The position numbers were made by a program, and so were the translations under genes. A DNA stretch of 45,706 nucleotides from Syntrophaceae bacterium (GTDB taxonomy: Bacteria > Desulfobacterota > Syntrophia > Syntrophales > UBA5619): NCBI GenBank assembly GCA_003141195.1, contig PLLC01000025.1, positions 8,530 through 54,235 of the forward strand, read 5' to 3'. The notes below the pieces were generated by a model. That model had not been told where the DNA came from and did not search any database. It saw only the letters and a program-made list of their open reading frames with translations. Below are positions 35,998 to 45,563 of this stretch, piece by piece (position 1 is the stretch's first letter; each line of letters opens with the position of its first letter).

Positions 35998-37367
35998 GGG
36001 TCTTCTCCCAATCGAGTGGGTAAAATAAACGGTTTTTAAGCTGCGAGCGCTTGTCCTGTAAGGGTTTGCACTCTACTGATCGCCGATAAAATATGATATG
36101 AACTCCGCATGCGAAAAACGAAACGATTGTGGGACGCGTATCGGTTTTCGGGGTTCACGCCGGAACCCGAGGTATCGGGGATTTTCGGTGACCCGAAAGC
36201 CCTGGTCATCAAGCTGCGACGCCGGGGGGAAAAACGCTTTGCGGAGCCTGCGGACGGGCACACCGGACGTTTTACGACCGCAAGGTGCGACGGGTTCGGG
36301 ATCTGTCGTGTGGCGACCGTCGCGTCTGGCTGGATGTGGAGATTCGACGTGTTTTGTGCCGGAGTTGCGGGAAAGTGAAGCAAGAGAGCCTGGAGTGGCT
36401 GGCCGACAACCCGGTTTATACGAAGCGTTTTTCCTTCTGGGTGGGACGCCGGGTCCGTGTCTCGACGATCCGGGATGTCGCCCGGGAGACCAACCTGGAC
36501 TGGAAGACGATCAAGGCGCTGGAGAAGCAGTACATGGAGGCGCAACTGCGGCGAGCGGGAACGCCGGGTCCGCAGATCATCGGGATCGACGAGATCTCCG
36601 TCCGAAAGGGGCACACCTACCGCATCATTGTGAGCGATCTGGTTCGGCAGCGCCCGATCTGGTTTGGGGGCACGGACCGTTCGGAAGCCAGTATGAATCT
36701 GTTCTTTGAATGGCTGGGAGGGAAGAGGAGCTGCAAAATCCGTCTGGTGGTCATGGACATGTGGAAGCCGTTCCGCAATGCCTGTGCGTCGCACGTGCAC
36801 GGCGCCGCAGTCCTGTACGACAAGTTTCATGCCCTGCGGCATCTCGGCGAGGCCATGGACAAGGTGCGCCGCAGCGAGTACGCCCGATTGAAAGGCGAGG
36901 ACCGCAAGTTTATCAAGGGGCAGCGATACACCTTGCTGTCGCACCGGGAGAACCTCTCCATGGACGGCAAGAAAGCCCTGCGGACACTGCTCAAGGCCAA
37001 TAAGCGACTGCAGACGGCCTACCTGCTCAAGGAGTCCTTCGGTCAGCTGTGGGAGTACCGCAGCGAAGCCTGGGCCCGGAAGTTCTTCGATAACTGGTGC
37101 GCTTCCCTGAAGGGGCAGAAACTGGAACCTTTCGAAAAGTTCGCCAAGATGATCGACCGCCACTGGGAGGGGATCGCAGCGTACTGCCTTCCCGAGAACA
37201 AGGTCTCTTTGGGCTTTGTGAAGGCCTCAACAACAAGATCCGGGTGATTCAACGTCGCTCCTATGGTTTGCGGGATGACGAATATCTCCGCCTCAAAATC
37301 CTCACTTCGATGCTGCCGGAGATATGAGAAACTGCATCAAGTTACCCACTCAGTTGGGAGATGAGCC
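35998..37367 (+). mobile_element. ISL3-family insertion sequence with intact ends
   Basis: A 1370-bp element. Its ends are 29-bp imperfect inverted repeats: 35998-36026 (GGGTCTTCTCCCAATCGAGT...) and 37339-37367 (complement begins GGCTCATCTCCCAACTGAGT). It is flanked on both sides by the 8-bp target duplication ATCTTTCA (35990-35997 and 37368-37375), as expected for ISL3. The perfect duplication implies a fairly recent insertion, although the transposase frame is broken twice. It landed between the importer operon and the ketosynthase cluster. Confidence 0.93.
36109..37327 (+). pseudogene. ISL3 transposase, two frameshifts
   Basis: Read through, it would be a DDE transposase of about 405 residues. 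Segment 1 (36109 to about 36235) begins MRKTKRLWDAYRF and ends KLRRRGEK. The zinc-finger segment TLCGACGRAHRTFYDRKVRRV continues in the -1 frame, so one extra base lies in the run of six G and five A near 36224-36234. Segment 2 carries CRSCGK, the catalytic GIDEISVRKGHTYRI, VVMDMWKPFRNA and DKFHALRHLGEAMDKVR. Near 37215-37222 one base is missing: SLGFVK should continue as EGLNNKIRVIQRRSYGLRDDE and ends LTSMLPEI in another frame (stop 37325-37327). As written the element cannot make its own transposase. Confidence 0.88.
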
Positions 37368-37604: not shown

Positions 37605-37633
37605 TTGACATACGGAAACGTTTTTTCTATACT
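37605..37633 (+). promoter_or_regulatory. Sigma70 promoter of the ABC-ACP-ketosynthase operon
   Basis: TTGACA (37605-37610), a 17-bp spacer and TATACT (37628-37633); a leader of about 60 nt precedes the TTG start at 37702. It begins TTGACATAC, and the spacer contains AAACGTTT, a small palindrome. Confidence 0.8.
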
Positions 37634-37701
37634 CCGCACGTCCCGTTTTTTCAAAGGTCGTAAAACTTCTTGCATGAATTGGTCATTTTGACGGAGATCC
37701 G

Positions 37702-38637
37702 TTGATCAGCATCAAACATCTCTACAAATCATACCATGGGAAATCCATCCTCTATGACATCCAGCTTTCGGTGAGGCGTGGTTCCATCATGGGGCTGTTG
37801 GGTCCCAACGGCGCGGGAAAGACGACCCTGATCTCCATCCTGACAGGTATCATCGAAAAAGACGACGGAGAGATCACCATCGGCGGCCTCGATCTCGAAC
37901 GTGAGATGGGCCGTATCCAGTCCCTGTGCAGTTATGTGCCCCAGACCCTCGCTTTCTATACCCGTCTGTCGGCCTTTGAGAATCTGGAGTACTTCGGTTC
38001 CCTCTGGGGTCTGAAGGGGAAGAAACTGAAGGAACGCATGGCATTCTGCATCGATGCCGGGAGCATGGAGGCCTTTGTCCATAAGCGGGTGGACACGTTC
38101 TCCGGCGGGATGAAGAGACGCCTGAACCTGGCCATAGGCCTTTTAAACGAACCCGACATCCTGTATCTTGACGAGCCGACGGTCGGCGTCGATGCACAGT
38201 CCAGGAACTACATCCTGGAGACGATCAGAAAGATCAACCGGGAAAGGGGAACGACGGTCATCTACACCTCCCACTACATGGATGAAATCGAGCAGGTGGC
38301 CGACGAGATCGCCGTGATCGATGAAGGAAGGATTGTCCTTCATGGCAGCAAACAGGCCCTTTTGACACACGCCGATGCCGTTTTGATCAGCGTGGAGCCG
38401 ATGACAGAGGCCGCCGTCGGGGTACTGCGGCAGCGCGGCGGGCTACAAGTGAAGGCGGACAACGTTCATGTCGAACGGGACGAACGCTTCAATGAAAACA
38501 TGGCTGCGGTATTTGCCGTCCTTCACGATCACGGCGTCCGGGTGAAGGACATCGTATTCGGCCACAGAAATCTTGAGGCGCTTTTCCTCAAACTGACCAG
38601 CAGCCGACTGCGGGATGACGAGGGGCAAAACGGGTAG
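37702..38637 (+). CDS. ABC-2-type exporter ATP-binding protein
   Basis: A 311-residue ATPase of the DrrA/NodI/CcmA type. It has Walker A GPNGAGKT (34-41), CSYVPQTLAFYTRLSAFENLEYFG (Q-loop region), the signature FSGGMKRRLNLAIGLL, Walker B ILYLDEPTVGVD and the switch His in YTSHYMDEIEQVAD. The C-terminal extension (about 225-311) is usual for DrrA-like subunits. Translation starts at TTG (37702), with GGAG 5 nt upstream. It is the first gene of the operon, with the permease start 2 bp after its stop. This type exports lipids, polysaccharide or polyketide products. Position ahead of ACP and ketosynthase genes suggests the cargo is what they build. Confidence 0.93.
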   Translation: MISIKHLYKSYHGKSILYDIQLSVRRGSIMGLLGPNGAGKTTLISILTGIIEKDDGEITIGGLDLEREMGRIQSLCSYVPQTLAFYTRLSAFENLEYFGSLWGLKGKKLKERMAFCIDAGSMEAFVHKRVDTFSGGMKRRLNLAIGLLNEPDILYLDEPTVGVDAQSRNYILETIRKINRERGTTVIYTSHYMDEIEQVADEIAVIDEGRIVLHGSKQALLTHADAVLISVEPMTEAAVGVLRQRGGLQVKADNVHVERDERFNENMAAVFAVLHDHGVRVKDIVFGHRNLEALFLKLTSSRLRDDEGQNG

Positions 38638-38639
38638 GC

Positions 38640-39857
38640 ATGATGAAGCTGCTGTACACCCTGAAAAAGGAATTCCTGCTGATCACCCGCGATATCCATG
38701 CCGTCACGGTCCTGTTTATCATGCCGGCCGTTTTCATCATGATCATGTCCCTGGCGATGCGTGACCTTTTCGAGCTCAACAACACGGTCCATATCGATGT
38801 CCTTGCCGTGAACCGGGATGCGGGGAAGAAATCGGGGGAGTTCCTCAAGGCGATAGAGGAACTCCGTACCTTCAAATTTCACCTTCTCGAGAAGGACGTC
38901 GCCACGGAGAAGGTTAAGGAGCAGATGCTTTCCCGGGACTACAAGTTTGCCCTGGTGATCGGGGAGAACTTCTCCGCCATCGTGGAGGACATCGAAAAAG
39001 AGGAGGATCAAAAGCCTCTGGCGCTGTTCGTCAATCCCGCGGTCAACCTCCAGACCCAGATGATCCTGACCAACGCTCTGGACGGAAGGCTGGCGAAGTT
39101 GAGGAAGGATGCCTTCATCGACCGTATCGGGGAAGTCCTGGCCGCAGCCGGGATTGACGAGAAGAAACTCAAGGCGGCCGAGGAAAGCCGGGTAGAGGTC
39201 CAATACGTTTACAAAGAGGCGCGTGCCGCCAAGGTCCCCTCCGCCGTCCAGCAGAGCGTCCCCGCCTGGCTCGTTTTTTCCATGTTCTTTATTGTCATCC
39301 CCATCTCCAACACCTTTATCTCCGAACGGGGGCAGGGCACCCTGATGCGCCTCAAAAGCATGAACGTCTCGCGGGTCGCCCTGATCATCGGCAAGATGGT
39401 CCCCTATCTTTTCGTCAATGCCATCCAGGTGATCCTTATGATCGCCATCGGTGTTTATGCAGTCCCCCTTTTGGGCGGCACCCCCCTCACCGTCGGGGAT
39501 TCACTGGGAGGCCTTGCCCTGATTGCCGCTTCCGTGAGCTTCAGCGCCATCTCCGTGGCGCTCCTGATCGCCTCCCTGGCCAGGACGACGGAGCAGGCCA
39601 CCACCATCGGGGGCGTCCTGAATATCATCTTCGGCGCACTGGGCGGGATCATGGTGCCCAAGTTTGTCATGCCCGGATTTATGCAGGAGATCGCCCATCT
39701 CTCCCCCATGTCCTGGGGGCTGGAAGGATTCCTCGACATCTTCCTGCGGAACGGCAATGTCTCCGACGTCCTCCCGGAAAGCCTGTCCCTGCTCATTTTC
39801 GGGACAGCCATGCTGATATGTACGATGATCGCATTGAAAAAACAAAGAGAGGTTTGA
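38640..39857 (+). CDS. ABC-2-type exporter permease
   Basis: A 405-residue inner-membrane subunit with the YhgE/DrrB-like two-part layout. One span near 22-42 (AVTVLFIMPAVFIMIMSLAM) is followed by a large periplasmic segment (about 48-215, with coiled-coil-like KKLKAAEESRVEVQYVYKEARAAK), then five spans from about 220 to 400 (PAWLVFSMFFIVIPISNTFI, then a cluster ending IFGTAMLICTMIAL). SERGQGTLMRLKSM and HLSPMSWGLEGFLDIFLR are conserved features of ABC-2 permeases. It forms the exporter with the ATPase encoded 2 bp upstream. Its stop lies 8 bp before the favoured ACP start. Confidence 0.92.
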   Translation: MMKLLYTLKKEFLLITRDIHAVTVLFIMPAVFIMIMSLAMRDLFELNNTVHIDVLAVNRDAGKKSGEFLKAIEELRTFKFHLLEKDVATEKVKEQMLSRDYKFALVIGENFSAIVEDIEKEEDQKPLALFVNPAVNLQTQMILTNALDGRLAKLRKDAFIDRIGEVLAAAGIDEKKLKAAEESRVEVQYVYKEARAAKVPSAVQQSVPAWLVFSMFFIVIPISNTFISERGQGTLMRLKSMNVSRVALIIGKMVPYLFVNAIQVILMIAIGVYAVPLLGGTPLTVGDSLGGLALIAASVSFSAISVALLIASLARTTEQATTIGGVLNIIFGALGGIMVPKFVMPGFMQEIAHLSPMSWGLEGFLDIFLRNGNVSDVLPESLSLLIFGTAMLICTMIALKKQREV

Positions 39858-39865
39858 AAGTAGCG

Positions 39866-40132
39866 ATGCAAGGTTCCCTGGATGAAAGACTGAAGATGGA
39901 CTTGAAGAGGCTGATCGTCGAGGAGTGCGATCTCATGATCGATCCCGGGGAGATCCATGACGATGATCCCCTGTTCGGCAACGCCGCCCCTCTCGGCCTG
40001 GATTCGATAGATGCCCTGCAGATTTCCATCGCGGTACAGAACCGATACGGCCAAATGATCACCGACAGCAAGCAGATGAGGCGAATCATGAAATCGATCA
40101 ACACCTTTGCTGACTTCATCCAACCGGAGTAG
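39866..40132 (+). CDS. Acyl carrier protein
   Basis: An 88-residue four-helix carrier protein. Ser47 in PLGLDSIDALQIS is the expected 4'-phosphopantetheine attachment site (consensus DSxD/E). Helix 1 (DERLKMDLKRLIVEECDL) and the end (KSINTFADFIQ) fit the family. It is cytoplasmic and would hold the growing or finished acyl chain. The ATG at 39866 gives the usual ACP length; an ATG at 39818, inside the permease gene, would add 16 residues. Its neighbours (two ketosynthase-like genes downstream, exporter upstream, BtrH-like protein opposite) point to a dedicated carrier, not the fatty-acid ACP. No phosphopantetheinyl transferase is in the window. Confidence 0.88.
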   Translation: MQGSLDERLKMDLKRLIVEECDLMIDPGEIHDDDPLFGNAAPLGLDSIDALQISIAVQNRYGQMITDSKQMRRIMKSINTFADFIQPE

Positions 40133-40135
40133 GAC

Positions 40136-41311
40136 ATGGGGCGAAAGCCATTTGTCACTGGAAAGGCGATGACCTGCTCCCTCGGGGATTCCCTGGAGGG
40201 GATTGTCGAGGCCGTACGCCATCAGCGGTTGAAGCTGGAACAACTTCCCTTCACCCTCTCCGGCCTGCCCTATACCAGACCCTACTACCTGATCCGGAGA
40301 AACGAGAAGGATCAACTGGAGAACCGCTCCGAGGCTTATTTTTACGAGGTGCTCTTTTCCACGGTCTCCCGCGCCCTCGACGACGCCGGGGTGAGCGACG
40401 CCGAGATCAGGGACATGCCTCTGTTTTTCGGCTCGACATCCATGGATGTTCCCGTGTTTGAGGGCAAACACCGCCGGCGGTCCTCGTCCGTGTCGGAACT
40501 GTTTCTCCAGGCATCCAATGGGTATGGCAAAATCGCCGGCGCCGTCATGGATAGGTTCGGAATGGAGGGCAACACTTACTCCTTCATTACGGCATGCACA
40601 TCGAGCTCCAATGCCGTTCTTTACGCCGCATCCATGATCGAGGAACGGTGCATCGAAAGGGCTCTGGTGGTGGGCTATGACCTATACAACAACCTCGGTT
40701 TTTACGGCTTTGAGGGCCTCAAATCCATCGCCTCTTCCGAGTACAGGCCCTTTGACAGGGCGAGGGACGGCCTGATCCTCGGCGAGGCTTGCGGCGCGGT
40801 GGTTCTGGAGGGGCAGAACCGGAAGGACTCCGATTTCATGTGCCTTGGCGGGGCAAACCTCTGTGATACTTACAGCGTGACCAGTCACGATGAAGAGGGC
40901 GCCGCCGTAGCGGAAACGATGAACAGGGCGCTCATGCAGGCAGGGATCGATCCGGGGGAAATCTGTGCTGTCAAGGCGCACGCCACGGGAACGGAGAACA
41001 ATGACAGGACCGAGTGTGCGGCCATGAGATTGGTCTTTGGCCATCGCATCCCTCCCGTAACGTGCGTGAAACCTTTCATCGGCCACACGGTCGGCGCCTG
41101 CGGCGTCAGCGAGCTGATTCTGTTGACGGAGTCGATCAAGGCGGGGTTCATCCCCGCCACACCGGGCTTCCGGGAAAAGGACGAGGCATTGAACCTGACG
41201 CCCCTGACGGAAAACAGACAAACCGGGGAGGGAATTTTTATGCTGAACTACTTCGGCTTCGGCGGTAACTGCACCACCCTTATCCTTTCCAACCGGGGCG
41301 ATGGGGGATGA
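40136..41311 (+). CDS. Beta-ketoacyl-ACP synthase (FabF-like, complete active site)
   Basis: A 391-residue thiolase-fold condensing enzyme. The catalytic set is complete: Cys154 in ITACTSSSNAV, His282 in AHATGTENND, and Lys312/His317 in KPFIGHTVGACG. The C-terminal NYFGFGGNC is the glycine-rich loop. It would elongate an ACP-bound acyl chain by decarboxylative condensation. The N-terminal part is less like FabF and closer to ketosynthases of aryl-polyene-type clusters. It starts at ATG 40136, 3 bp after the ACP stop, with GGAG upstream, and its stop overlaps the next ketosynthase-like start by 4 bp (ATGA). No ketoreductase, dehydratase or thioesterase gene is seen nearby. Confidence 0.92.
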   Translation: MGRKPFVTGKAMTCSLGDSLEGIVEAVRHQRLKLEQLPFTLSGLPYTRPYYLIRRNEKDQLENRSEAYFYEVLFSTVSRALDDAGVSDAEIRDMPLFFGSTSMDVPVFEGKHRRRSSSVSELFLQASNGYGKIAGAVMDRFGMEGNTYSFITACTSSSNAVLYAASMIEERCIERALVVGYDLYNNLGFYGFEGLKSIASSEYRPFDRARDGLILGEACGAVVLEGQNRKDSDFMCLGGANLCDTYSVTSHDEEGAAVAETMNRALMQAGIDPGEICAVKAHATGTENNDRTECAAMRLVFGHRIPPVTCVKPFIGHTVGACGVSELILLTESIKAGFIPATPGFREKDEALNLTPLTENRQTGEGIFMLNYFGFGGNCTTLILSNRGDGG

Positions 41312-42180
41312 GAGGAATGTACATTCACAGCTTCTCTGCCTATACCGGCGAACCGAACGTGGACGTCGAATGGCTGAAGGCGGAGATTTCACGTTACACC
41401 CGGGTGAATTTCCGCAGGGGGAACAGGTTCATCCTGCTTGCCCTGCTTGGCGCCTGCCAATGTATCCACGAACGTTCCATCGAGGCCGATACGGGGGTGT
41501 ATCTGACGACGGAGCACGGCAATCTCGGTGAGACCGCGGCTGTCCTGGATGAGATCTATACGGCCCGCTCTCTGCCCAAACCTTACGGATTCATCAACAC
41601 GATGAGCGGTACGGCCGCGTTTTATCTTGCCCAGACCCTGGGTAGCCGGGGCCGGAATATCACCGTTTCCAGCCAGCACCTCTCCTTCGAAAGGGGGCTG
41701 GAACTGCTGAAGTTGGATTTTGCCGGGGGTGCGGAAAGAAGCGCCCTAATCGGCGGCGTGGATGAGGCCTCTCTTTCCGGGGAAAATACGGGGCAGGAGA
41801 ATCATCGCGGTTGGCGCATGGCCGACGGGAGCGGCTGGTTTTATGTCAAGCCCGAGAGGGAGGGGGCCTGCGGGTCATTTATCGCAAACCGGTCGTTCCG
41901 GGATGCCCCCTCCTGTATCGACTGGATCAGGAAACGGGGGGGACCGCCGTTGGATCTCCTTTCATTCGGTGCCCTGGTCGGTGAGGATGAAGCCGCGGCA
42001 TTGAAGGCGGCTTTGCGCCCCGCCGCCGTGTTTGATTACCTCCGTGACGGCGGGTATTCCGGATCGGCCACCGCATGCGGCGTCGGCAGGTTCATGGGGC
42101 ATTTTCAGGGAAGGTCCCTGTTGCACATCAACCGGGATCGGCGAGGAAATTACGCCGTACTGGAAGTGGAACGGTATTGA
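41308..42180 (+). CDS. Ketosynthase-like protein without active-site Cys (chain-length-factor-like)
   Basis: A 290-residue protein resembling a shortened ketosynthase. The opening YIHSFSAYTG and the block GFINTMSGTAAFYLAQTLGSRGRNITVS (from about 94) align with the nucleophile region of condensing enzymes, but the Cys is replaced (NTMSGTA). The AHATGT motif is absent. The ending CGVGRFMGHFQGRSLLHINRD recalls the GHT-GACG and C-terminal regions. In type II polyketide and aryl-polyene systems such partners pair with an active ketosynthase and shape chain length; that role is inferred. An ATG at 41317 is an alternative start. The element at 42223-42348 follows 42 bp downstream. Confidence 0.8.
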   Translation: MRGMYIHSFSAYTGEPNVDVEWLKAEISRYTRVNFRRGNRFILLALLGACQCIHERSIEADTGVYLTTEHGNLGETAAVLDEIYTARSLPKPYGFINTMSGTAAFYLAQTLGSRGRNITVSSQHLSFERGLELLKLDFAGGAERSALIGGVDEASLSGENTGQENHRGWRMADGSGWFYVKPEREGACGSFIANRSFRDAPSCIDWIRKRGGPPLDLLSFGALVGEDEAAALKAALRPAAVFDYLRDGGYSGSATACGVGRFMGHFQGRSLLHINRDRRGNYAVLEVERY

Positions 42181-42222
42181 CCGATACCCCGGGATCAGGA
42201 ACATGTTGAAAAAGTCTATTTT

Positions 42223-42348
42223 GCAGGCTGTTCAAAAATGCCCAGATGCAAGGCCCCCGAAATCCTGAGCCGTGAGGCGTACTTGCTTGTACGTTGAACG
42301 GCGAAGGATAAGAGAAACGCCGCAGATGGGCGTTTTTCAACAGCCTGT
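42223..42348. repeat. 126-bp inverted-repeat element, copy 2 (opposite orientation)
   Basis: About 90% identical to the complement of the element at 16638-16763. The ends are GCAGGCTGTTCAAAAATG and the complement of ACAGGCTGTTGAAAAACG. The centre is GTACTTGCTTGTAC where copy 1 has GTACTTTAAAGTAC, so the pairing arms are kept while the loop differs. It fills the gap between the convergent ketosynthase-like and BtrH-like genes, its right edge touching the BtrH stop codon. Confidence 0.88.
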
Positions 42349-43349
42349 CAGAGGTTCAATGACCTGAGGGTTGTGTAGACAAGCCGCTCCTGCGCGGCGC
42401 ACTTCTGCAATCGCTGGGCGATCTCCCCCACATTCACATCCGCCGTTTTGCTTTTACAGGCCCTGGCGCAGGCCAAGGCAAACTGGCGCCACAGATTGCC
42501 CGCCTCCGTCATCATCCGCGACGCCTCCCCCATTGGGACGATGCCAAGAAGATCCCCCGCCTCCTGGAGAAACGCCGCATACATGAACCGGAAGCCCCCG
42601 CCTCCCGTCCCGATCTCCTCCTGCATCCGGACGATATGGGCCAGAAGCAGACGGGTGTACCTCAGGTCTTCGCGGACAGGGAGCCGTTTGATTTTTCTTG
42701 CCATATAATGGATCCCCTTGACGCCGATGAACGGCACGGGGGCATGGAGCATCATGTGAACCGTCCGCTTGACGGCTTTTCGTATCGCTTTGTGCAAATC
42801 AATGTCCCGATTGACCCTGACGGGGTAGTATATGAAACCCTTCGGGGCAAGGGTTCCCCTGGCGAAGCGGGCATTCTGGAGATCCTCCGCGTTGATCCGG
42901 ACGGGGTGTTCAAAAACAGGGTCGCTGATGAGAAATTCGTTTCCCTCCCTCCCGTAGACGATCAGATTGTGCGCGTTGAACTGGAAGCGCATCTCCGGCG
43001 GGAAATAGGGGAGCCAGTACACCGATGTCTGCAATCCGACAATTTCCCCGCTGTCGATGAGGTTGGTGAGTTCGGCAAGGGCCTCTCCCTTTTCCCGATA
43101 TCTCTTTGTCCGGAAGCGGGCATCGAGGTGTTTTACCGCCCCCTTGATGATTGCCCCGGGGAACATGCGGTACGAAATGATGGGCATGCCGGTGATCTTG
43201 ATCAAGGGAAGATAGGCAAAGGTCAGACCGCCCGTGATGCCGAAGACCATGGGCTCGGAAAGATCGAGACCGTGGCGCTTCAGGAGCGCGGTGACCACGC
43301 CGCTTTCGCAATGGGCGTATTGTCGGTGTTCCAGCGGCTTCAGCGTCAC
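42348..43349 (-). CDS. BtrH N-terminal / DUF4872 domain protein (acyltransferase-like)
   Basis: A 333-residue protein with the BtrH_N papain-like domain: Cys14 in YAHCESG, SEPMVFGITGGLTFAY, His127 in FNAHNLIVYG and Asp143 in ISDPVF form a plausible Cys-His-Asp set. The C-terminal DUF4872 domain shows MQEEIGTGGGGFRFMYAAFLQEAG (about 255-278). BtrH in butirosin synthesis moves an acyl group from a carrier protein to an amine, so this protein may offload the chain held by the ACP encoded on the facing strand. It starts at GTG (43349) with GAGAGGA 7 nt upstream, 3 bp after the stop of the preceding gene. No signal peptide; cytoplasmic. Confidence 0.85.
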   Translation of the reverse strand: MTLKPLEHRQYAHCESGVVTALLKRHGLDLSEPMVFGITGGLTFAYLPLIKITGMPIISYRMFPGAIIKGAVKHLDARFRTKRYREKGEALAELTNLIDSGEIVGLQTSVYWLPYFPPEMRFQFNAHNLIVYGREGNEFLISDPVFEHPVRINAEDLQNARFARGTLAPKGFIYYPVRVNRDIDLHKAIRKAVKRTVHMMLHAPVPFIGVKGIHYMARKIKRLPVREDLRYTRLLLAHIVRMQEEIGTGGGGFRFMYAAFLQEAGDLLGIVPMGEASRMMTEAGNLWRQFALACARACKSKTADVNVGEIAQRLQKCAAQERLVYTTLRSLNL

Positions 43350-43352
43350 CGA

Positions 43353-43757
43353 TCAATCCTCTCCGTGAAAGTGCCGTAACGCGTCAACGGATACCCTGAA
43401 GATCCGGGCATACTCCATGAGCGTCTTGTCCTTGAGTTTCTTGAAAACGCCGGGTTTAAAATGCCGTTTGACCTGCCAGCGGTAAAGCCCCATGGCCTGG
43501 GCAAGCGTCAGGGGGTCCATCCAGCTTTTGTGCATGAAATACTCTATCGGCGATGTTTCATGATGCCTTACCCGGACGGCGGCCTTCCCGGCCTGTTCCT
43601 CGAAGTCGTGGATCACCTGGTGAAGGACGATCTCCTCCACCTCCCAACCCCGGGTCGTGGTCTGGGCATAACGCCCCTGTTCATCAACGGCGTACAGAGC
43701 CTTCCTCTCTCCCTGTAGCATCTTGATGTCATCCTGGGGCACTTCGGATATCTTCAT
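43353..43757 (-). CDS. Conserved hypothetical, HTH-like C-terminus
   Basis: A 134-residue protein not assigned to a named family. The N-terminal half reads like a small ligand or protein-binding domain (ISEVPQDD, ALYAVDEQGRYAQTTTRGWE, then an acidic helix EEIVLHQVIHDFEEQAGKA). From about residue 83 it resembles an XRE-type helix-turn-helix: LTLAQAMGLYRWQVKRHFKPG, then LKDKTLMEYARIFRVSVDAL. It could be a regulator of this cluster or a protein-protein adaptor. The ATG at 43757 follows the radical-SAM stub stop by 10 bp and its own stop is 3 bp before the BtrH-like start, so these genes are coupled. Confidence 0.75.
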   Translation of the reverse strand: MKISEVPQDDIKMLQGERKALYAVDEQGRYAQTTTRGWEVEEIVLHQVIHDFEEQAGKAAVRVRHHETSPIEYFMHKSWMDPLTLAQAMGLYRWQVKRHFKPGVFKKLKDKTLMEYARIFRVSVDALRHFHGED

Positions 43758-43767
43758 AGCGGTCCGT

Positions 43768-43926
43768 CTACACCACCGGCAGCATCATATAGGCGTACTT
43801 GAAGGCGGCGAGCACCTCGAGGCTGAAGGGTTCTCCTCGAAAGATCTGCCGGATGGATGTGATGCCGTATTCCTCCTCGGGGATGCTGCGGCCGACATTG
43901 GGAGGATTGACGAACATAATCTTCAT
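43768..43926 (-). pseudogene. B12-binding radical SAM protein, N-terminal stub
   Basis: A 52-codon frame. MKIMFVNPPNVGRSIPEEEY, then GITSIRQIFRGEPFSLEVLA matches the start of cobalamin-binding radical SAM proteins of the HpnP/BchE type (NPPN loop of the B12 domain). It then switches to AFKYAYMMLPVV and stops. The CxxxCxxC cluster motif and the rest, normally several hundred residues, are missing. An internal deletion joining the first 40 codons to the end of the same or another gene is the simplest reading. The stub is still placed as a leader to the HTH-like and BtrH-like genes, with tight spacing. Confidence 0.62.
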
Positions 43927-43948
43927 GGAGCTTGCCTTTGGGGAATTA

Positions 43949-44067
43949 TTAGGGTTTTTCGCGATTGAGTTGCACCACCGTGTTTGCGTAAGGTCCGCAC
44001 CCTGTCATCATCAGAACGGTCAGCAACAGCCCCCGACGACCATCTTTCGATACGACGCTTTCATCAT
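43949..44067 (-). pseudogene. Small lipoprotein gene with a one-base frameshift
   Basis: AAGGAG followed 5 nt later by ATGATG (44067) marks a genuine start: MMKASYRKMVVGG. The frame then meets TGA, but shifted by one base it continues LLLTVLMMTGCGPYANTVV and QLNREKP to TAA at 43949. The length is 119 nt, one short of 40 codons, and the loss maps to the run of five Gs where six are needed. The restored 39-residue product has a signal sequence and lipobox MTGC. It is the first gene of the minus-strand set leading to the BtrH-like gene. Confidence 0.65.
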
Positions 44068-44224
44068 TCGATCTCCTTTTTTGCCGATCTGTTTATGGAA
44101 CGGATTTATCAAGAGAGATCTCTGAACCCCCTGCCTTGCGTTGCCGTTCTATACCTTTTTCACTCCGAGTTTTCAATGGAAACAATGCCTGTGATTTGAT
44201 AAGAACTTGATTTTACGTGAAGGG

Positions 44225-44253
44225 GGTATAGGGAAATCATTCTCGTATGTCAA
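44225..44253 (-). promoter_or_regulatory. Sigma70 promoter of the lipoprotein-to-BtrH operon
   Basis: Minus-strand TTGACA (44248-44253), a 17-bp spacer and TATACC (44225-44230). It begins TTGACATACG, as does the promoter of the facing ketosynthase operon. The leader would be about 150 nt. Confidence 0.75.
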
Positions 44254-44327
44254 TGAAAACTGGCCAACAGAGGATTTTGGCCATAAAATAAAAATTTATC
44301 CTGGAATTTTTTTGTGCTATTATTTCA

Positions 44328-44333
44328 TATAAT
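44328..44333 (+). promoter_or_regulatory. -10 box candidate for the PilZ gene
   Basis: A perfect TATAAT lies 20 bp before the PilZ ATG. A second option, TGCTATTAT at 44315-44323, looks like an extended -10. No good -35 hexamer was seen for either. Confidence 0.35.
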
Positions 44334-44352
44334 ACAGAAAGGAGGCAGGAGC

Positions 44353-44733
44353 ATGGCCAACATCTTGAGCTATGTTCGGAGGTTATTCGCACCCAGGTGT
44401 CATCAGCGTTTCATGGTCCAAAGCGGTACCTTTGTCATCGTGTCGCCCGGTATGGATAAAGAACAGAAGGTTCAGGTCATAGACATCAGCCAGGGCGGCG
44501 CGGCCTTCATCTACCAAGGGTCCGAAGAAGACATCGAGACATCGGGCATCCTTAAAATGCTCGCCGAGAATCCGAGTCTCGAAAAAGTGCATTTCGAAAC
44601 GGTCTCCGATGAACCGGCCCCCGGATCTACGGATCCATCGTTACCCTACCGACGTCGGGGTGTGAAGTTCAACTGGATGGGAGTCATGGAAACAGCGGAT
44701 TTGAAGAAATTCGTCAAAAGCATCAGCATCTGA
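44353..44733 (+). CDS. PilZ domain protein
   Basis: A 126-residue protein with both c-di-GMP-binding motifs of PilZ domains: RCHQR (RxxxR, about residues 15-19) and DISQGG (D/NxSxxG) in VQVIDISQGGAAFIY. A later RRRGVKFNWMG strand closes the barrel. There is no other domain, so it is probably a small cytoplasmic c-di-GMP receptor acting on motility, adhesion or exopolysaccharide. Its output partner is not evident. The ATG at 44353 is chosen for AAAGGAGG upstream; an upstream in-frame start at 44314 overlaps the promoter region. The diguanylate cyclase at 14447 could supply the ligand. Confidence 0.85.
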   Translation: MANILSYVRRLFAPRCHQRFMVQSGTFVIVSPGMDKEQKVQVIDISQGGAAFIYQGSEEDIETSGILKMLAENPSLEKVHFETVSDEPAPGSTDPSLPYRRRGVKFNWMGVMETADLKKFVKSISI

Positions 44734-45182: not shown

Positions 45183-45563
45183 CTACATGAGGTAGCGCTG
45201 GAGGGTCCGGTAGCTGTTGAAATCGGAATCGACAATGGTGGCGCCGATATTGACTTCGCTTATGGCGTCGCTGGTCCTTTGGGGTTGGCACTTCATGCGC
45301 AGAGGCTGCGTGGCGTTCGGCATGGTGAAGGTTACCTCGATGGCCGAAGATGCGCCTTCGGCCTTGATCTCCAGTTGCGTGCCCTTCGGCACGGATATCC
45401 TCATACCATACAGGGAGATGTCGAGTATGGCCCCCGCCTCAAAATCCTCCTTGTCCTGGTTGGATTCGCGGATCAGGGCCGGCACGGAGCCTTTTTCCTA
45501 TCATACCGTCGCTGCTCCGTTCCACTGACCTGCGAAAGGAGCCATCCGGGGAGAACGTCATTA
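45183..45563 (-). pseudogene. PilZ domain gene, apparently frameshifted
   Basis: The main frame (from a GTG at 45485, 100 codons) has the PilZ motif AILDISLYGMRISVPKG and ends IVDSDFNSYRTLQRYLM. Directly upstream this frame has TGA TAG. The expected RxxxR motif lies one frame over as EQRRYDRKKAPC (about 45495-45530), and a plausible start (GGGGGAAATA then ATG, near 45563) lies in the third frame. So the two c-di-GMP motifs are separated by at least one indel near 45487-45495. If the GTG is used, a truncated domain without RxxxR would result. Confidence 0.55.

Follow-up and report, generated by a model that had tools for sequence, protein, structure and literature searches.

In Azoarcus sp. 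BH72, the dar locus of arcuflavin, a xanthomonadin-dialkylresorcinol hybrid of the polyene-dialkylresorcinol ester type, contains, in order, darK (hypothetical), darJ (ketosynthase, KS), darC (acyl carrier protein, ACP), darI (permease), darF (ATPase), darE (BtrH-like), darD (hypothetical), darB and darA, as well as an intervening toxin-antitoxin pair (PMC3949708). In Pseudomonas chlororaphis, darABC together with two regulators makes free 2-hexyl-5-propyl resorcinol (PMC6403133), while Bacteroidetes such as Flavobacterium and Chitinophaga carry flexirubin clusters (PMC3992019). Here we analyzed a locus in a 45,706-nt stretch (hereafter the window, whose positions serve as coordinates throughout) of contig PLLC01000025.1, from the metagenome-assembled genome (MAG) of an uncultured Syntrophaceae bacterium (Syntrophales, UBA5619; assembly GCA_003141195.1; genome label G000). 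Seven genes, K-J-C-I-F-E-D in the Azoarcus lettering, are shared with the BH72 locus in the same relative order and convergent layout, whereas darA and darB, which adjoin them there, are both absent here, with only a darB relic left. Membership of the locus in the dar/flexirubin gene set is well supported, and we consider it somewhat probable that a flexirubin-type aryl-polyene pathway lost the half that forms the dialkylresorcinol and that the locus is its other half, for tailoring and export, with DarH passing an ACP-bound chain to a non-resorcinol acceptor for export by the ATP-binding cassette (ABC) transporter.

On the forward strand, the ATPase (37702..38637) and permease (38640..39857) of an ABC-2 exporter are the counterparts of darF and darI. 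They are followed by an ACP of 88 amino acids (39866..40132; darC), an ApeO/FabF-like KS (40136..41311; darJ) and a Cys-less ketosynthase-like chain-length factor (CLF) of 290 amino acids (41308..42180; darK). These five genes converge with two on the reverse strand, namely darH (42348..43349; Azoarcus darE), encoding a member of the acyltransferase family with BtrH_N and DUF4872 domains, and darG (43353..43757), encoding a protein with a helix-turn-helix (HTH)-like C-terminal half. The gene letters differ between sources: DarH of NCBIfam is darE of Azoarcus, and DarG of NCBIfam is probably darD. All seven frames are intact, and the two facing groups agree with a preliminary description of this DNA, which had listed the same genes. 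Membership in a named pathway, which that description had given as grounds for refutation, holds for the gene set but not for the product, since the genome lacks DarA and DarB. The locus does not represent a new kind of cluster: its pathway family is known, while the form without DarA and DarB is unusual and the host unexpected. No paper mentioning flexirubin-type gene sets in Syntrophales was found in the literature searched.

The two other described systems differ from the locus in distinct ways. The Bacteroidetes flexirubin clusters share DarG, DarH, the ABC pair and the ACP/KS/CLF genes with it and, within the same genome, the aromatic amino acid lyase, ligase, KSs, ketoreductase (KR), dehydratase (DH) and LolA; here, however, DarA and DarB are missing, the polyene cluster is on a different contig from the module, and the host is a Syntrophales anaerobe. 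By contrast, P. chlororaphis darABC shares only the dar name and the ACP gene. It has DarA and DarB and, in the described cluster, no DarG, DarH or exporter, making it a mirror image of the present locus. Since darABC and two regulators suffice for the free resorcinol, DarG, DarH, the KS/CLF pair and the exporter are not needed for resorcinol formation.

The carrier and condensing proteins keep the residues expected of them. The ACP serine lies in the motif GLDSID and is Ser47, as previously numbered, when the ATG at 39866 is taken as the start codon; in the longest open reading frame (ORF; start 39818) it is Ser63. The KS triad Cys154-His282-His317 was exactly as first reported and was invariant in 18 orthologues, and the best Protein Data Bank (PDB) scores of the KS were to 9s5h_B and 6qsp_A (ApeO). 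Its partner lacks a catalytic-site Cys, again as first described. As a single sequence the partner gave no significant match to PDB sequences, but a profile of 26 sequences matched ketosynthases and CLFs there, including 6kxd_B (ishigamide) and, weakly, 6qsp_B (ApeC). The structural model (predicted local distance difference test, pLDDT, 89.6) aligned to the ishigamide CLF 6kxd_B with a Z score of 27.7 and 3.3 A over 286 residues, so that the partner is predicted to carry the full ketosynthase/CLF fold, nearest to the ishigamide CLF. A Cys-His-His KS thus adjoins a Cys-less partner of the same fold, as in type II KS/CLF pairs. The aryl polyene pair ApeO-ApeC (PMC8358021, PDB 6QSP) resembles the pair here in that the KS scores best to ApeO and the CLF profile weakly matches ApeC; ApeC, however, keeps about one thiolase domain, whereas the 290-residue partner here matches CLFs over its full length, and the locus adds DarG/DarH and an ABC exporter to what aryl polyene clusters contain. 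In a sister genome (G011), the CLF gene is split by a frameshift (L017:9575-10422), through decay or assembly error.

The BtrH-like protein scored 469.5 bits against the NCBIfam DarH model NF053550 (cut-off 300) and contains both the BtrH_N and the DUF4872 domain. Its proposed site Cys14-His127-Asp143 held up: Cys14 and His127, a papain-like site, were invariant in 8 orthologues, with D or E at position 143. The DarH profile found no relative in the PDB, only designed coiled coils. BtrH itself is the acyl-ACP:aminoglycoside acyltransferase of butirosin biosynthesis. DarH shares its two domains and a Cys/His active site, but forms a separate family tied to aryl-polyene genes, and aminoglycoside genes are absent nearby. 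The neighboring protein scored 161.9 bits against DarG_fam, NF053536 (cut-off 70). Matches of the DarG profile to the PDB were weak and uninformative. In its structural model (pLDDT 90), an XRE/lambda-repressor-like HTH occupies only residues ~65-130, and this fold is about equally near to the HTH of HppE, which is an enzyme, and to those of repressors; DarG may be a regulator or an adaptor. Elsewhere, DarG-DarH pairs occur in tandem (three in L095:3571-8179, two in L081:936-4397 and two in L056:6881-10978), which suggests several transferases with differing substrates within one cluster.

The enzymes of aryl-polyene synthesis were found in the same genome, on contig C14. This contig encodes an aromatic amino acid lyase that has the ASG motif, an AMP-ligase, a KR, an ApeP-like dehydratase and a PS-DH-like protein, along with five KSs, two ACPs, a LolA-like protein, acyltransferases, thioesterases, a flavin adenine dinucleotide (FAD) enzyme and two B12-binding radical SAM (B12-rSAM) proteins; starter supply by lyase and ligase, KR, DH, KSs and ACPs are thus all present. 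The preliminary description had noted the lack of ketoreductase, dehydratase and thioesterase, which is right for the module, but these genes, with the ligase and the lyase, are present in the C14 cluster. Moreover, in another genome of the genus (G016), both parts stand together on one 34-kb contig: orthologues of the C14 AMP-ligase, two KSs, acyltransferase, KS and ACP (81-97% amino acid identity) are followed by DarG-DarH, then by the CLF-KS-ACP-permease-ATPase block (72-78% identity) and finally by the C14 FAD enzyme. In G000, the genes for that ACP and the FAD enzyme stand next to each other on C14, and the block is on contig C51. Comparison of the two arrangements indicates that the point between the ACP and the FAD enzyme is where the polyene cluster gained or lost the block. 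A linkage resembling that of Bacteroidetes flexirubin clusters is also seen in two other Syntrophales loci (L035 and L085), where the contig of the DarG/H module holds the aromatic amino acid lyase, KR or LolA, thioesterase and radical SAM genes as well. An in-frame TGA flagged in the C14-type lyase genes from five genomes was considered as recoding and rejected, since each of these genes simply ends there, at the C-terminus.

DarB, the ketosynthase/cyclase that makes the dialkylresorcinol (NF005293/NF053539), had no match in this genome at E<=1e-20 or 1e-10, nor was it found in the ten other genomes of the genus (11 with this one). A candidate on contig C47 (NF005703) proved to be a single KASIII-like match of 86 bits, under the family cut-off. 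On the other hand, four genomes from a sister genus (g4) have DarB beside DarG/DarH. Whole-genome searches of 15 further genomes whose loci lack a local DarB found it elsewhere in 5 and not in the other 10. As no library names the aromatase DarA, we took as its candidate the ORF that immediately precedes darB in 48 loci, an identity that comes from gene order. This candidate had no match in the present genome or in any Syntrophales searched, even where DarB is present; its two matches were in a Desulfobacteraceae MAG and in Desulfatitalea. In the four sister-genus genomes, a B12-binding radical SAM gene (HpnR/BchE-like) lies directly before darB (L013:1522-4063, L015:13220-15723, L018:6666-9122 and L021:613-3152), in the place of the darA of other phyla, and DarA was not found in the three of these four genomes that were searched whole. 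The B12-rSAM enzyme is possibly an anaerobic substitute for DarA, or a methylase.

The fate of darB in the present genome can be followed by alignment to the closest relative (L015/L027), where the order is B12-rSAM, darB, darG, darH. The locus is collinear with it from darH through darG and then jumps to an in-frame fusion relic of 52 codons (43768..43926, reverse strand), which joins rSAM codons 1 to ~41 (91% DNA identity over 124 bases), a short internal darB piece and the last darB codons with their stop, followed by darG. The junctions lie at ~43805-43811 and ~43785-43795. From this alignment, the stub is the scar of a ~2.3-kb deletion that removed most of the rSAM gene and darB, and it explains the 'radical-SAM stub' of the preliminary description, which is real. 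An assembly error is a less likely source of the fusion, given that DarB is missing throughout the genus. The lipoprotein reported next to it (~43950-44050) did not stand: it is a ~31-codon frame with no ATG start, found in no relative. In the closest relative, a second, truncated DarH C-terminus lies between the CLF and the intact DarH (L015:8532-8834), another sign of rearrangement.

To place the locus among its relatives, we scanned with a DarH alignment, using one genome per species, which gave 80 named loci, or 81 with the present one (two duplicate loci omitted; neighbors counted within about 21 kb; gene calls in high-GC loci homology-based). They occur in Syntrophales, Desulfobacteria, Marinobacter, Vibrionaceae, Campylobacterota, Bacteroidetes and others, and the convergent layout was also seen in Marinobacter (L042). 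ACP, KS and CLF accompany DarH in 56/81 loci, a strong co-occurrence such as the preliminary description had proposed to look for, with the reservation that the CLF hidden Markov model also catches other KS-like genes in flexirubin loci, so that counts there are approximate. The permease is present in 69/81. The DarA candidate and DarB both occur in 48/81 loci, DarB only in 10 and neither in 23, some of them cut by contig ends. In the DarH tree, the locus groups with Syntrophales, Desulfobacteria and a Spirochaetes MAG; of the loci in this clade of 17 rows (100/99 support), none has DarA and three have DarB. Among 21 genomes of the family, the CLF is present in exactly the DarH-positive ones except the fragmentary G004 (p 4e-5), and the C14-type lyase in 7/9 DarH-positive versus 2/12 DarH-negative genomes (p 0.009). 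A plasmid search with the CLF and the DarA candidate returned no informative record.

Under the favored reading, an aryl-polyene chain would be started and elongated on an ACP by the C14 enzymes, and the ACP/KS/CLF of the module would build or hold an acyl chain. DarH would take the ACP-bound chain on Cys14 and hand it to an acceptor, the ABC-2 pair would carry the product over the inner membrane, and LolA-like carriers would take it outward. Because DarB and DarA are absent, the acceptor cannot be the dialkylresorcinol, the usual lipid partner in flexirubin-type pigments; a lipid or another alcohol or amine is most likely, and the product is probably a different, undescribed one. We infer the acceptor, the reactions, the direction of transport and the present activity of the pathway from the gene content. 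The sequence of ACP-bound chain, BtrH-like transfer and export had already been proposed; this logic is suggested by the genes, which are neighbors in many phyla, but the idea of a stand-alone minimal type II polyketide system was wrong, as the module is the accessory half of the dar set. Several points count against the reading we favor. The published flexirubin model gives the ester bond to another protein, FlxW (PMC3992019). The literature searched contained no DarH assay and assigned no role to the KS/CLF/ACP of dar clusters. All Syntrophales data come from MAGs, and the deletion looks recent here, so that the module could be dying.

The accessory genes (KS, CLF, DarG, DarH and exporter) have no assigned function in the literature searched because they normally travel with DarA/DarB. 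The two roles are separated in genomes that have lost DarB but still maintain the accessory genes under constraint. Taken together with the P. chlororaphis resorcinol, the constrained DarB-less sets suggest that the accessory set serves the polyene, through transfer and export, rather than resorcinol formation. A broader proposal, possible but on the doubtful side, is that the anaerobic Syntrophales clade, with its Desulfobacteria and Spirochaetes relatives, has rewired the flexirubin pathway: resorcinol formation would have been lost, DarH, KS/CLF/ACP and the exporter would make and export a conjugate in which the aryl polyene is joined to another, undescribed acceptor, and the genomes with B12-rSAM beside DarB would be an intermediate state.

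It is unlikely, though less so than the other alternatives, that the module is a non-functional leftover whose genes, without purpose once the rSAM gene and darB were gone, have yet to erode. The still readable frame of the recent relic, the insertion sequence beside the module, the frameshifted CLF of the sister genome and the truncated second DarH of the closest relative would all fit such decay. Nevertheless, the seven intact frames show ratios of nonsynonymous to synonymous substitution rates (dN/dS) of 0.14-0.28 versus the closest relative. Similar constraint was seen for all seven genes between L039 and L040 (dN/dS 0.14-0.23), genomes in which no DarB was detected, an absence weakened by their ~80% completeness, and DarB-less modules occur in several Syntrophales and a Spirochaetes MAG. 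We regard as rather improbable an independent compact pathway, in which ACP, KS and CLF make their own polyketide and the BtrH-like enzyme joins it to another molecule for export. The three proteins do keep their key residues, and in G012 and G017 the seven genes stand between unrelated housekeeping genes; these two genomes, however, also carry the aryl-polyene lyase elsewhere, the block lies inside the aryl-polyene cluster in G016, and the module itself is without reductive or chain-release genes. Finally, a normal dialkylresorcinol-ester (flexirubin) pathway with DarB in an unassembled part of the genome is very improbable: the assembly is 96% complete and not closed, the contig ends 1.4 kb past the module and some other genomes have DarB on a separate contig, but DarB occurs in 0/11 genomes of the genus, the relic shows darB deleted at its usual place and the DarA candidate is absent too.

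The insertion sequence lies 0.3 kb from the block on C51. It belongs to the ISL3 family (35998..37367, forward strand; transposase match 249 bits), is bounded by terminal inverted repeats of 26 nt (35998-36023 / 37342-37367, 85% identical) and is the only full copy in the assembly. Its transposase frame (36285-37247) spans only model positions 29-331 of 370 and may be frameshifted. Upstream of the exporter operon, a sigma70-like promoter box on the forward strand (37605..37633; TTGACA-17-TATACT) matches 11/12 consensus positions; it is a consensus match only, and promoter-like sites overall were not above shuffles. On the other flank, toward the contig end, two small, weakly PilZ-like proteins are encoded at 44314-44733 and 45183-45485.

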